Of a stretch of DNA of 39,077 nucleotides, positions 21,209 to 37,161 are shown one piece after another. Origin of the DNA: Nitrobacter sp. 62-13 (GTDB lineage: Bacteria > Pseudomonadota > Alphaproteobacteria > Rhizobiales > Xanthobacteraceae); NCBI RefSeq assembly GCF_001896955.1, contig NZ_MKRN01000199.1, positions 1-39,077 on the forward strand. Reading direction: 5' to 3'. The notes under the pieces were generated by a model, which was not told the origin of the DNA, did no database searches, and saw only the letters and a program-made list of their open reading frames with translations. A program made the translations under genes and the position numbers. Position 1 is the first letter of the stretch. The number at the start of each line of letters is the position of its first letter.

Positions 21209-21584
21209 GTCATTCCGGGGCGCGAGCGGAAGCGCGCGAGCCCGGAATCCAGTCAAGGGCAATGGATGTTCTACGTGTATCTTCTGGCGAGCCGCAAACA
21301 GGGAACGCTCTACCTTGGGTAACGAAGGACCTGGTCCGTCGAACCCATCAACACAGGGAGAAACTGCTTCCAGGGTTCTCGTCGCGTTATGATATTCGCA
21401 GACTGGTCTGGTTCGAGACGTACGATGATCCCGTCACCGCAATCGAACAAGAAATGGCGGCGCGCTTGGAAGACCGGCTTGATTGAGAAGGATAATCCCG
21501 ACTGGAGAGACCTTTATCCTGAAATTGCTCGTTGATGTTATGGCCGGATTCCGGGTTCGCGTCTGCGACGCGCCCCGGAATGAC
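21209..21584 (+). mobile_element. Decayed GIY-YIG element, family B hairpin ends
   Basis: A 376-base unit in the ligA-recN gap. The left end 21209-21250 and right end 21546-21584 are inverted copies sharing GTCATTCCGGGGCGCG and CCCGGAATCC, with a changed loop between. Between them lies only a broken GIY-YIG nuclease ORF. The left arm ends 15 bases before its ATG and the right arm starts 10 bases after its stop. The design equals the intact element at 32611-32987 but uses another hairpin family. Confidence 0.7.
21266..21535 (+). pseudogene. GIY-YIG nuclease-domain protein, frameshifted remnant
   Basis: Three reading-frame pieces line up into one small GIY-YIG protein. From the ATG at 21266, MFYVYLLASRKQGTLYLG runs into a stop. 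One frame over it continues VTKDLVRRTHQHREKLLPGF and on to VWFETYDDPVTAIEQE. A third frame gives KWRRAWKTGLIEKDNPDWRD and LYPEIAR before a TGA at 21535. The first shift looks like one lost base in a GGCGTA-like codon pair. The second falls where the family has a 'KRIKKW' type stretch, so about 14 bases appear missing. Intact relatives have about 90-95 residues. The product cannot be made; the remnant marks an old insertion. Confidence 0.85.
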
Positions 21585-24491: not shown

Positions 24492-24584
24492 CTGTCATGG
24501 CCGGGCTCATCCGGCCATCCACGTCTTTCCATCCACGTCTTTCTTGAAACTCCAAAGACATGGATGCCCAAAGCCGGGCACGAC
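24492..24584. mobile_element. Two-armed family A palindromic element without ORF
   Basis: The left arm has GTCATGGCCGGG, CCGGCCATCCACGTCTT and then a small duplication of CCATCCACGTCTTT. The inverted right arm is a diverged form, AAAGACATGGATGCCC with GCCGGGCACGAC. Arm orientation and total length of about 93 bases match the element at 37071-37161. Confidence 0.7.
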
Positions 24585-31677: not shown

Positions 31678-32595
31678 CTATTCCAATCCGATCCGCTTGA
31701 TTTCCCATTGCAGGTCGACGCCCGACTGCTTCTTCACCTGCGCGCGCACGAAATCCCCCAGCGTCTCGATCTCGCGCGCGGTCGCCTCGCCGGTATTGAT
31801 GAGGAAGTTGCAATGCATCTCCGAGACCTGCGCGCCGCCGACGCGATGGCCGCGCATCCCGGCGGCATCGATCAGTTTCCACGCGCTCTGCCCCGGCGGA
31901 TTCTTGAAGGTCGAGCCGCCGGTCTTCTCGCGGATCGGCTGCACCGTCTCGCGATGGCTCTGCACCTCGTCCATGCGCGCGCGGATCGCTTCCGGCGTGG
32001 CCTTGCGTCCGCGAAACGTCGCGCCGGTGAAGATGACGGAGGGATAGATCGCGCTGTTGCGATATTCGAACTTCATGCCGGCATTGTCGAACGTCATCTT
32101 GTCGCCGCGGCGGCTGACGGCGCGCGCCTGGACCAGAACATCTTTCGTCTCGCTGCCGTTGGCGCCCGCATTCATGCGCAGCGCGCCGCCGATGGTGCCG
32201 GGGATGCCGAAATAGAATTCGAGGCCGCCGAGACCCGCCGCGACCGCAGCTTCGGCGACCCGCTTGTCGAGCGCGGCGGCGCCGGCGCGCAACGTTTCGC
32301 CGTCGGTCGCGATCTCCCCGAAGCCGCGCGCCGACAGGCGGATCACCACGCCCGGCAGGCCGCGGTCGCGCACGATGAGGTTGGAGCCGACGCCGATGCA
32401 GTAGATCGGAATCTCCTCCGGCAGATGCCGCAGGAAGTAAGCGAGATCGTTTTCATCCGCCGGCGTGAACAGCACCTGCGCCGGACCGCCGACGCGAAAC
32501 CATGTCAGCGGCGCCAGCGGTTCGTTCGCCAGCATTCGCCCGCGCAGCTCCGGCATCTGCGATTTCAGTTTTGTCGTGATGTCCGGGAAGGTCAC
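31678..32595 (-). CDS. murB: UDP-N-acetylenolpyruvoylglucosamine reductase
   Basis: FAD enzyme that reduces UDP-GlcNAc-enolpyruvate to UDP-MurNAc using NADPH. FAD-binding motifs are [14 protein letters not shown] and [12 protein letters not shown], then [26 protein letters not shown] and the catalytic serine in [10 protein letters not shown]. The 305-residue length and motif set fit the type IIa/short rhizobial form. The start is GTG at 32595, only 15 bases from the end of the GIY-YIG element, so the ribosome-binding context of this essential gene borders inserted DNA. Confidence 0.96.
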
Positions 32596-32610: not shown

Positions 32611-32987
32611 TCGTCATGGCCGGGCTTGTCCCGGCCATCCACGTCTTGCAGAATTTCCACATGGCTGGTGGATGGATCTATATTCTTACCGATCGTCCGA
32701 ATGGAATTCTCTACGTCGGCGTCACGAATGATCTTGTCCGCCGCATCTATGAGCATCGATCCGAATTCGTAGAGGGCTTCACCAAGCGGTATGGACTGAA
32801 GCGATTGGTCTATTTCGAGCAGTTTGACGATATCCGCGCCGCCATCCAACGAGAGCACAATATCAAACATTGGCCTCGTGCCTGGAAAGTCCGAAAAATT
32901 GTCGCGCGCAATCCCGATTGGGACGACCTTTTTGAAACAATTGCCAAGTGAAGACGTGGATGGCCGGGACAAGCCCGGCCATGACGA
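32611..32987 (+). mobile_element. GIY-YIG element with perfect 37-bp inverted hairpin ends (family A)
   Basis: A 377-base unit in the murC-murB gap. Positions 32611-32647 and 32951-32987 are perfect inverted copies of 37 bases. Each copy is itself a hairpin, ATGGCCGGG-CTTGT-CCCGGCCAT, with the tail CCACGTCTT pointing inwards. The space between is filled by one small GIY-YIG nuclease ORF. No target duplication is visible at the borders (left flank CTCTTT, right flank CCATGG). ORF-less copies of the same ends lie at 24492, 35670 and 37071. Confidence 0.8.
32661..32951 (+). CDS. Small GIY-YIG nuclease-domain protein, intact
   Basis: About 96 residues, almost only the GIY-YIG domain of the YhbQ/UPF0213-like family. 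The two core strands are GGWIYILTD and ILYVGVTNDL, the conserved arginine is in DLVRRIYEHR, and the metal-binding glutamate is in AAIQREHNIKHWPRAWK. The end is the usual NPDWDDLF. The ORF opens at 32616 inside the left repeat arm, adding MAGLVPAIHVLQNFH; that part is repeat translation. The ATG at 32661 (MAGGWIYIL) matches the family start, though no ribosome site is clear. It opposes all neighbouring genes. The lone domain could nick or cut DNA; cutting the flanking hairpins is my inference. Confidence 0.9.
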   Translation: MAGGWIYILTDRPNGILYVGVTNDLVRRIYEHRSEFVEGFTKRYGLKRLVYFEQFDDIRAAIQREHNIKHWPRAWKVRKIVARNPDWDDLFETIAK

Positions 32988-33013: not shown

Positions 33014-34417
33014 TCATCCCAGCGCCTTGAGTTCGCCCGGCAGCGCGTAGGCCCACTGCGTGATGTTGCCGGCGCCGAGGCACACCACATAATCGCCGGG
33101 CTTCGCGAGCCCCGCAACGACGCCCGGCAGCGCCGCCGACTCCTGCAACGGCACCACCTGGCGGTGACCGTGGGCGCGCAGGCCAAGCACGAAGTGGTCG
33201 CGGTCGATGCCCTCGATCGGCGGCTCGCCCGCCGGATAGACCTCGGCGACGATGACGGTATCGGCATCGTTGAAGCAGGTGCAGAATTCCTCGAAAAGCG
33301 ATTGCAGGCGGGTGTAGCGATGCGGCTGCACCACGGCGATGACCCGGCCGGCGGTGGATTCACGCGCCGCCTTCAGCACCGCTGCGATCTCGACCGGATG
33401 ATGGCCGTAGTCGTCGATGACGGTGACTCCGTTCCATTCGCCGGTCTTGGTAAAGCGCCGCTTGACGCCGCCGAACCCTGCGATGGCGCTGCGGATCGTT
33501 GCGTCGGGAATGCCGAGTTCATGCGCCACCGCGATCGCCGCCGTGGCGTTGAGCGCGTTGTGGCGGCCGGGCATCGGCAGCACGAGATCGGAAATCTCGT
33601 GGGCGGCGTCGGTCTTGCGGTTGCGGAACACGACGCGGAATCGCGAGCCGCCGCCGTTCGGCGCGAGGTCGACCAGCCGGGCGTCGGCCTGCGGGTTCTC
33701 GCCGTAGGTGATGATACGGCGGTCCTCGATCTTGCCCACCATGCTTTGCACGACGGCATGATCGATGCACATCACCGCGAAGCCGTAAAACGGCACGTTC
33801 TCCACGAACGAACGGAATGCGTCCTGCACGGCGTCGAAGGTCTTGAAGTGATCGAGATGCTCGGGATCGACATTGGTGACGATGGCGACGTCGGTCGGCA
33901 GCTTCAGGAACGTGCCGTCGCTTTCGTCGGCTTCCACCACCATCCACTCGCCCGCCCCCAGCCGCGCATTGGTGCCGTAGGCATTGATGATGCCGCCGTT
34001 GATGACGGTGGGATCGAAATCGCCGGCGTCGAGCAGTGCGGCGACCATCGACGTGGTCGTGGTCTTGCCGTGGGTGCCGGCGATGGCGACGCAGCTTTTC
34101 AGCCGCATCAGCTCGGCGAGCATCTCGGCGCGACGCACGACGGGAATGCGCTGCGCGCGCGCCGCCATCAATTCGGGATTGTCGCGCTTGATCGCGGTGG
34201 AAACAACGAGCACGTCCGCGCCGTTCACGTTGCCGGCCTTGTGGCCGACCGTGACATTGATCCCCTTCTCGCGCAGGCGGCTGACATTGGCGCCCTCGGA
34301 CGCGTCCGAACCCTGCACGGTGTAGCCGAGATTGCACAGCACCTCGGCGATGCCGCTCATGCCGATGCCGCCGATGCCGACGAAGTGGATGGGGCCGATT
34401 TCGCGCGGCAGTCTCAT
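33014..34417 (-). CDS. murC: UDP-N-acetylmuramate--L-alanine ligase
   Basis: Adds L-Ala to UDP-MurNAc using ATP in the cytoplasm. The N-terminal Rossmann domain shows [17 protein letters not shown], the P-loop [14 protein letters not shown] sits near 112-125, and [21 protein letters not shown] and the C-terminal [14 protein letters not shown] follow. The 467-residue length is typical. AAGGAAC upstream supports the ATG. The normal direct junction with murB is interrupted by the GIY-YIG element, whose hairpins would be transcribed through if both genes share an mRNA. Confidence 0.97.
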
Positions 34418-34431
34418 GTCTGTTCCTTGCC

Positions 34432-34524
34432 GTCATCGTCCGGAGGGACGATCCAGGAGTCCGCGACACCGATTCACAGCGGCCCGCATGGCGTACTGGA
34501 TGCCCCGCTTTCGCGGGGCATGAC
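34432..34524. mobile_element. Two-armed palindromic element without ORF, family G
   Basis: The left arm GTCATCGTCCGG ... GACGATCCAG and the right arm CTGGATGCCCCGCTTTCGCG followed by GGGCATGAC are inverted relatives. Each is a hairpin with the GTCAT end outermost. Total length is 93 bases. It lies between murC and murG. Confidence 0.65.
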
Positions 34525-35669: not shown

Positions 35670-35743
35670 TCGTCATGGCCGGGCTTCGTCCCGGCCATCC
35701 ACGCCTTTTCCTATCACACGCTTGCAAAACGTGGATGCCCGGC
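35670..35743. mobile_element. Two-armed family A palindromic element without ORF
   Basis: The left arm 35670-35707 carries TCGTCATGGCCGGGCTTCGT and CCCGGCCATCCACGCCTT, near identical to the intact GIY-YIG element's end. After about 18 bases comes an inverted partial arm AAAACGTGGATGCCCGGCA. More repeat-like DNA with a GCCGTTCTTCGAACGGC hairpin continues to about 35815. Its left arm makes the false MurG N-terminus. Confidence 0.7.
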
Positions 35744-35821
35744 ACCACAGGGGCGGAGCAAAGGACGCCGTTCTTCGAACGGCTATGGCCGGGGCACGAG
35801 GGTCAGGCCGCGAACATCCAT

Positions 35822-37070: not shown

Positions 37071-37161
37071 TCGTCATGTCCACACGTGTTGCGGGCATCC
37101 ACGTCTTAGGAATTTGAGCGAAAAAAGGCGTGAATGGCCGGAATAAATCCGGCCATGCCGA
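37071..37161. mobile_element. Two-armed family A palindromic element without ORF (91 bp, both arms complete)
   Basis: Left arm 37071-37107 and right arm 37125-37161 are each exactly 37 bases and align in inverted orientation with the ends of the GIY-YIG element. The right arm is a good hairpin (ATGGCCGGA / TCCGGCCAT); the left has a changed stem (TCGTCATGTCCACACG). The spacer is 17 bases. This looks like a GIY-YIG element with the gene removed. Confidence 0.78.

Follow-up and report, generated by a model that had tools for sequence, protein, structure and literature searches.

The window, that is, the whole stretch of 39,077 nucleotides analysed here, carries between murB and murC a unit of 377 bp in which an intact gene for a GIY-YIG nuclease lies between two palindromic arms. 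The arms are 37 nt long, are exact reverse complements of each other and are spaced 303 nt apart. The sequence-only reading of this DNA had described two perfect 37-base inverted hairpin copies around an intact ORF of about 96 residues in the murC-murB gap, which is confirmed by complementarity, folding and a Pfam match. It had also claimed ORF-less copies elsewhere in the window, and four gene-less dimers are indeed present, of which three show partial degradation. Between recN and ligA lies another GIY-YIG gene, which is broken and absent from that earlier reading, and its palindrome differs from the murC-murB arms. The features are the following:

21209-21250, + strand: left arm of the second element, a type B REP (GTCATTCCGGGGCGCG...CCCGGAATCC)
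21267-21535, + strand: GIY-YIG gene lying between recN and ligA, broken by a frameshift and a stop; limits approximate
21546-21584, - strand: right arm of the second element, a type B REP
24494-24582, no strand given: gene-less type A REP dimer, degraded, upstream of lpxC; right limit approximate
31678-32595, - strand: murB, a flank in the empty-site comparison
32611-32647, + strand: left arm, a type A CGTC-REP with tag CGTC outward, stem ATGGCCGGG, loop CTTGT and tail CCACGTCTT towards the gene
32661-32951, + strand: GIY-YIG nuclease gene, intact, 96 aa, antisense to murC and murB, catalytic-motif residues conserved
32951-32987, - strand: right arm, an inverted copy of the left-arm REP, 100% complementary
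33014-34417, - strand: murC, a flank in the empty-site comparison
34432-34524, no strand given: gene-less tag-outward REP dimer in the murC/murG gap (GTCATCGTCCGG... / ...GCGGGGCATGAC; inner ends CCAGGAGT...GTACTGG)
35672-35755, no strand given: gene-less type A REP dimer, right copy degraded, just upstream of murG; right limit approximate
37085-37160, no strand given: gene-less type A REP dimer, degraded; limits approximate

Each arm, folded by itself, has a stem of 9 bp and a loop of 5 nt, at energies of -13.2 and -14.0 kcal/mol (z near -6), with the layout CGTC - ATGGCCGGG - CTTGT - CCCGGCCAT - CCA. The nuclease gene and the right arm share one base, the last of the stop codon, and the first in-frame ATG, at 32616, lies within the left arm and gives a reading of 111 aa, so that some annotations would begin there. 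The core pattern of the arms occurs three times in the window when at most 3 mismatches are allowed, where shuffled sequence would give 0.06, and 22 sites with at most 1 mismatch are found genome-wide. A third GIY-YIG copy elsewhere in the genome likewise has type B arms. The dimer at 34432-34524 is of a REP type other than that of the unit's arms, with a close likeness on a related contig (L052).

The nuclease protein

The ORF at 32661-32951 belongs to the GIY-YIG superfamily by its match to Pfam PF01541 (E=7e-14), by its conserved catalytic residues and by its fold, which is predicted with confidence (pLDDT 92). A domain search of the 96-aa protein returned the GIY-YIG domain only. Residues Y7, Y18, G20, R28, H32 and E65 are invariant across 57 homologs, and N84 nearly so. 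For most pairs dN/dS lies near 0.03-0.08, and one pair has 0.18; the low values are rough where synonymous distances are saturated, as several are. By this measure the protein is under strong purifying selection. Both in sequence and in structure the best solved match is UPF0213 BH0048 (PDB 1zg2), followed by Slx1, with weak E-values. An anti-phage role or phage origin was rejected as a reading, the protein having no PADLOC or PHROGs match.

The arms as CGTC REPs

CGTC REPs are abundant in Alphaproteobacteria. In the 2013 survey of Di Nocera et al. they are defined by a CGTC tag, an AT-initiated stem of 8-9 bp, a loop of 4-5 nt and a CCA tail, and their predominant form is a dimer with the tags outside, termed HH (PMC3733652). 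The superfamily takes in dRS3 of Neisseria and RPE-4 and RPE-6 of Rickettsia; its members "apparently lack a dedicated transposase" and have no associated transposase gene, and no Y1 genes flanked by CGTC REPs were found (PMC3733652). Both arms of the unit carry the CGTC tag, the stem ATGGCCGGG, the CTTGT loop and the CCA tail, and the repeats are multicopy and mostly arranged as tag-outward dimers. Furthermore, the base preceding GTC is C in 92% of the type A REPs that flank GIY-YIG genes. As judged from these sequence features, both arms are members of the CGTC-tagged REPs, and the unit at 32611-32987 is an HH dimer whose spacer is a gene. The palindromes are thus a published class, the CGTC REPs (PMC3733652), and the type B palindrome at the broken GIY-YIG copy matches the consensus of Br-REP2 of Bradyrhizobium, for which a link to a nuclease gene is unreported (Hahn et al. 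2016, PMC5082802).

Pairing of nuclease genes and REPs in other genomes

We asked how frequently inverted arms accompany such genes in 80 homologous loci from GTDB genomes, which were chosen for encoding the nuclease and not for arms; since the named loci were taken in order of their likeness to the query, distant relatives are under-sampled. A REP detector found both flanks occupied tag-outward at 49 of the 80 loci and at 3 of 350 control ORFs of at least 150 aa from the same contigs (Fisher p=2e-39). An alignment-based test that is independent of the REP pattern (score of at least 38; top random score 34) gave inverted arms at 62/76 GTDB loci and at 0/808 random intervals. The enrichment of arms at GIY-YIG genes over other sites, on which the earlier reading had staked its case, is thus borne out. 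Arms were also present at 79 of 91 loci in a sample of 61 genomes of the same family, and at 15/27 loci in a phylum-wide sample, compared with 0/226 control intervals. REPs are intergenic and abundant, and a gene might come to lie in REP-rich intergenic space by chance, or be surrounded by REPs that are merely its terminators. This explanation is refuted by the random-interval and ORF controls, it would leave unexplained both the orientation bias and the within-genome co-variation described below, and we regard it as hardly credible.

The architecture is found in annotated records of Neisseria gonorrhoeae (with dRS3), Aeromonas caviae, Azospirillum lipoferum, Novosphingobium, Sphingobium, Rhizobium sp. 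CIAT894, Sinorhizobium meliloti (with a CCTC-tag variant), Spirosoma (Bacteroidota) and Planktothrix (Cyanobacteria), and was seen by eye in one contig of Dehalococcoidia (Chloroflexota) and one of Patescibacteria. The earlier reading had spoken of rhizobia, and the pairing is not restricted to them. The annotated records of Rhizobium tumorigenes and Subdoligranulum did not show the architecture, and a Photobacterium record has a downstream array only. The two N. gonorrhoeae records, NZ_CP119140.1 and NZ_CP119142.1 (L158 and a second record), are PLSDB "plasmids" of chromosome length, about 2.17 Mb.

In the reverse direction, the examined DNA has 45 long REP pairs with tags outward (200-800 bp); 41 of them enclose a GIY-YIG motif recognised by a regular expression, and the other four coincide with GIY-YIG matches or a known remnant (window 21209-21584, L061, L083 and L239, the last from Sphingobium TomMM15). 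Since this DNA was largely chosen for GIY-YIG, the result mainly shows that such pairs contain no other gene. For type C REPs, listed completely in the 61 genomes, all three long tag-outward pairs (G012 C104 and, twice, G056 C1) enclose GIY-YIG genes.

A second GIY-YIG subfamily (L242-L257) has another widespread palindrome, CCTCATCCTGAGGAGC...GCGTCTCGAAGGATG, in inverted orientation, with strong arms at 12/20 loci, a count that has no control intervals of its own. Among the rest of the 20 are two UPF0213-like copies without arms (L259, L261) and two loci apparently mis-aligned by the search. The subfamily was dropped as a negative control because of its own arms, which leaves the two UPF0213-like copies as the only controls of this kind.

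Gene-less dimers and co-variation of arms and protein

Among relatives, dimers outside nuclease genes are tag-outward in 30 cases and inward in 1, with a median spacing of 32 bp. The inner ends of type A dimers, CCACGTCTT...AAGACGTGG, are those of the window arms, and the other type-specific inner ends (CCAGTA...TACTGG and CCATA...TATGG) are likewise found within nuclease-bearing units. Dimers and units having these inner ends in common, the dimers look like internally deleted units, and we infer that the direction of descent would be from the nuclease-bearing unit to the gene-less dimer.

The arms and the protein vary together. In 61 armed loci from 32 genomes, the arms of nuclease paralogs within a genome are dissimilar (median similarity 0.19), and those of the nearest nuclease in another genome are similar (median 0.74). 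Arm similarity follows protein similarity, and in a permutation that shuffled arms only among same-genome paralogs the observed correlation was never reached (p=0.0005). When only pairs with non-homologous flanks were considered (78 loci, 42 genomes), the effect was retained, with p=0.001 in the correlation test and p=0.003 in the nearest-neighbour test. This pattern argues for recognition of the arms by the protein, or at least for their joint movement, and against simple inheritance at one locus; joint movement alone would give the same signal, so that co-variation is by itself no proof of recognition.

REP copy number and the matching nuclease

For three REP types in the 61 genomes, REP counts, which leave out the copies flanking a nuclease, were higher where the matching nuclease type was present. 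Median counts for genomes with the matching nuclease, with other types only and with none were 30, 19 and 5 for type A (p=0.03, matching against other types), 37, 9 and 0 for type B (p=0.008) and 6, 0 and 0 for type C (p=0.003); against genomes with no nuclease, the matching type gave p<=4e-4. These tests treat genomes as independent and ignore phylogeny, most genomes being one per genus, and roughly ten GIY-YIG matches that were weak or lay at contig edges were left out, so some genomes may be mis-typed. In the same genomes, any nuclease compared with none gave p=0.0003 and the rank correlation p=0.0002. As exceptions, some genomes, among them G004 and G039 for type A, hold many REPs with no detected matching GIY-YIG gene. 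With genomes classed by best match, the excess of type A REPs in carriers of the window's subfamily over other GIY-YIG carriers did not reach significance (p=0.054, 61 genomes).

Y1 (RAYT-type) transposases could in principle mobilise these REPs, with the GIY-YIG gene a passenger between two of them. Y1 genes are present in 19 of the 61 family genomes, where counts of type A and B REPs are somewhat higher (a weak correlation, p=0.03 and 0.02), and inverted repeats of some kind occur at 18/21 Y1 loci with full flanks in relatives. However, CGTC REPs flank none of these 21 loci, in line with the earlier survey (PMC3733652), no Y1 gene (PF01797) was found in the window's own genome (G000, a MAG 89.8% complete), and in genomes lacking Y1 the REP counts still track GIY-YIG (p=0.006 and 0.0009). 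A Y1 driver is thus strongly disfavoured, and we consider it very improbable. Orientation, inner ends, co-variation and the copy-number correlation together lend support to what had been suggested for this locus, a REPIN-like unit whose ORF-less copies would be served in trans.

Empty and filled sites

The murC-murB gap measures 2-46 bp and is free of REPs in 15 distinct cases among relatives; in other relatives, gaps of at least 355 bp hold the nuclease and REPs. One relative has a gene-less dimer at this place (L146) and another what appears to be a decayed dimer (L148), and some longer gaps have no detected REPs. Bradyrhizobium, Rhodopseudomonas and Nitrobacter all have copies at this site, and the copies therefore look long resident. 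In A. lipoferum 4B the unit fills the sufB-sufC gap, and it is absent from this gap in three Azospirillum species that are 92-94% identical over the region. This copy (L164), within the suf operon, has a full REP dimer on each side.

The earlier expectation that relatives would have clean empty murC-murB sites is borne out, the sites being too diverged for base-exact limits to be read. Neither a target-site duplication nor a base-exact border was found at the compared empty and filled sites, and strain-level comparison of Sphingobium and Azospirillum plasmids gave presence and absence of the unit with no base-exact borders. Closely related Sphingobium strains showed no clean single-step insertion, and no recent near-identical copies of a unit were seen within one genome. 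On this comparative evidence, the murC-murB and sufB-sufC sites establish presence and absence of the unit, without the direction of insertion in each case or its exact borders.

In the fnrL-fixJ gap of Sphingobium some strains have the unit, and others a single palindrome tagged with CGTC at both ends (CCGTCACCCCGGGTCAAGCCCGGGGTGACGG; L170 and L171 compared with L166), which corresponds to the outer halves of both arms joined. We did not use CCGTCACCCCGGGTCAAGCCCGGGGTGACGG as evidence of collapse or excision, as replication slippage between half-stems or a pre-insertion state fits equally.

The three states of the murC-murB site (empty, dimer-only and gene-bearing) are also what might be seen if the nuclease were a homing-type parasite lodged in the spacer of tag-outward dimers, which would cut gene-less dimers and be copied into them by recombination through the arms, the REPs themselves having spread by other means. 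The GIY-YIG domain is a classic one among homing nucleases, the gene lies exactly in the position of the dimer spacer, and the co-variation of arms and protein would fit as well. However, the protein has no extra DNA-binding domain, most empty murC-murB sites have no dimer, related nucleases are often at non-homologous loci, and homing alone does not predict the excess of REPs in genomes with the matching nuclease. Homing remains the main rival, although we consider it unlikely.

The occupied and empty sites bear also on the idea that the nuclease acts on REP hairpins or cruciforms by trimming or resolving them, for the host or the REPs, without moving REPs, its linkage to them being kept for regulation or co-inheritance. 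The presence of the branched-DNA nuclease Slx1 among the nearest solved folds, the strong purifying selection and the long residence of copies at murC-murB are in keeping with such a function, which would however explain neither the presence and absence of the unit at these sites nor a gene bounded, in the same orientation, by the ends of dispersed dimers. We regard a managing enzyme of this kind as decidedly improbable.

Discussion

These results lead us to the view that the unit is probably an autonomous REP element, comparable to RAYT/REPIN systems and based on a GIY-YIG nuclease, from which the REP dimers would derive as non-autonomous forms. The comparisons made here support well both the unit and its specificity, and we infer that movement is caused by the nuclease. 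The enzyme would recognise REPs of its own type as a hairpin or cruciform and would cut there, and through this cutting the unit, like the gene-less tag-outward dimers with the same ends, would be gained, lost and copied. The chemistry of GIY-YIG enzymes is hydrolysis of DNA, and none is known to join strands; any movement would thus need host functions, and joining would be done by host repair or replication. By analogy, the nuclease may have a role like the one that RAYT, an unrelated enzyme, has in REPIN/RAYT systems.

A wider proposal sees in the CGTC REPs the ends of mobile elements of a new class, which would spread by a lone GIY-YIG nuclease in place of a transposase, by hairpin-specific cutting and by host repair, and supposes that several GIY-YIG subfamilies have independently become partners of different palindromes, CCTCATCCTGAGG...TCGAAGGATG included. 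We hold this to be a serious possibility that falls a little short of being probable.

We found no paper linking GIY-YIG to REPs, dRS3, RPE or CGTC repeats in the open-access PMC literature, a scope that does not establish priority. The 2006 GIY-YIG survey does not mention palindromes, nor do the later REP papers examined for it mention GIY-YIG or a nuclease. The GIY-YIG nuclease would be the first candidate driver for CGTC REPs. With a candidate enzyme that is matched to repeat type within single genomes and whose active site can be tested, the question of the missing transposase (PMC3733652) can be reduced to a cleavage assay. If true, the proposal would give a function to a very common and mostly unnamed GIY-YIG family, and would mean that the REP/REPIN way of life has been reached with two unrelated enzymes.

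Comparison with known systems

The window's nuclease has the same fold as UPF0213 BH0048 (PDB 1zg2) and Slx1. Slx1 is a branched-DNA nuclease of eukaryotic repair that depends on Slx4. Unlike the window's nuclease, the two UPF0213-like copies from this family of genomes have no arms. With GIY-YIG homing endonucleases of the I-TevI type the likeness is that of a GIY-YIG domain in selfish genes, but here there is no NUMOD or other DNA-binding domain and no intron or intein. The described CGTC REPs share tag, stem, loop, tail and HH dimers with the window arms; no enzyme was reported for them, whereas here a GIY-YIG gene lies within the dimer (PMC3733652). REPIN/RAYT systems differ in their GTAG tag and their Y1/HUH transposase, where we find the tag CGTC, no Y1 gene in this genome, none flanked by CGTC REPs among the Y1 loci of relatives, and an enzyme of unrelated fold and chemistry. 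They are alike in having inverted REPs around an enzyme gene, gene-less dimers elsewhere and co-variation of enzyme and REP. Finally, as in insertion sequences with MITE derivatives, terminal inverted repeats are common to the unit and its gene-less derivatives.
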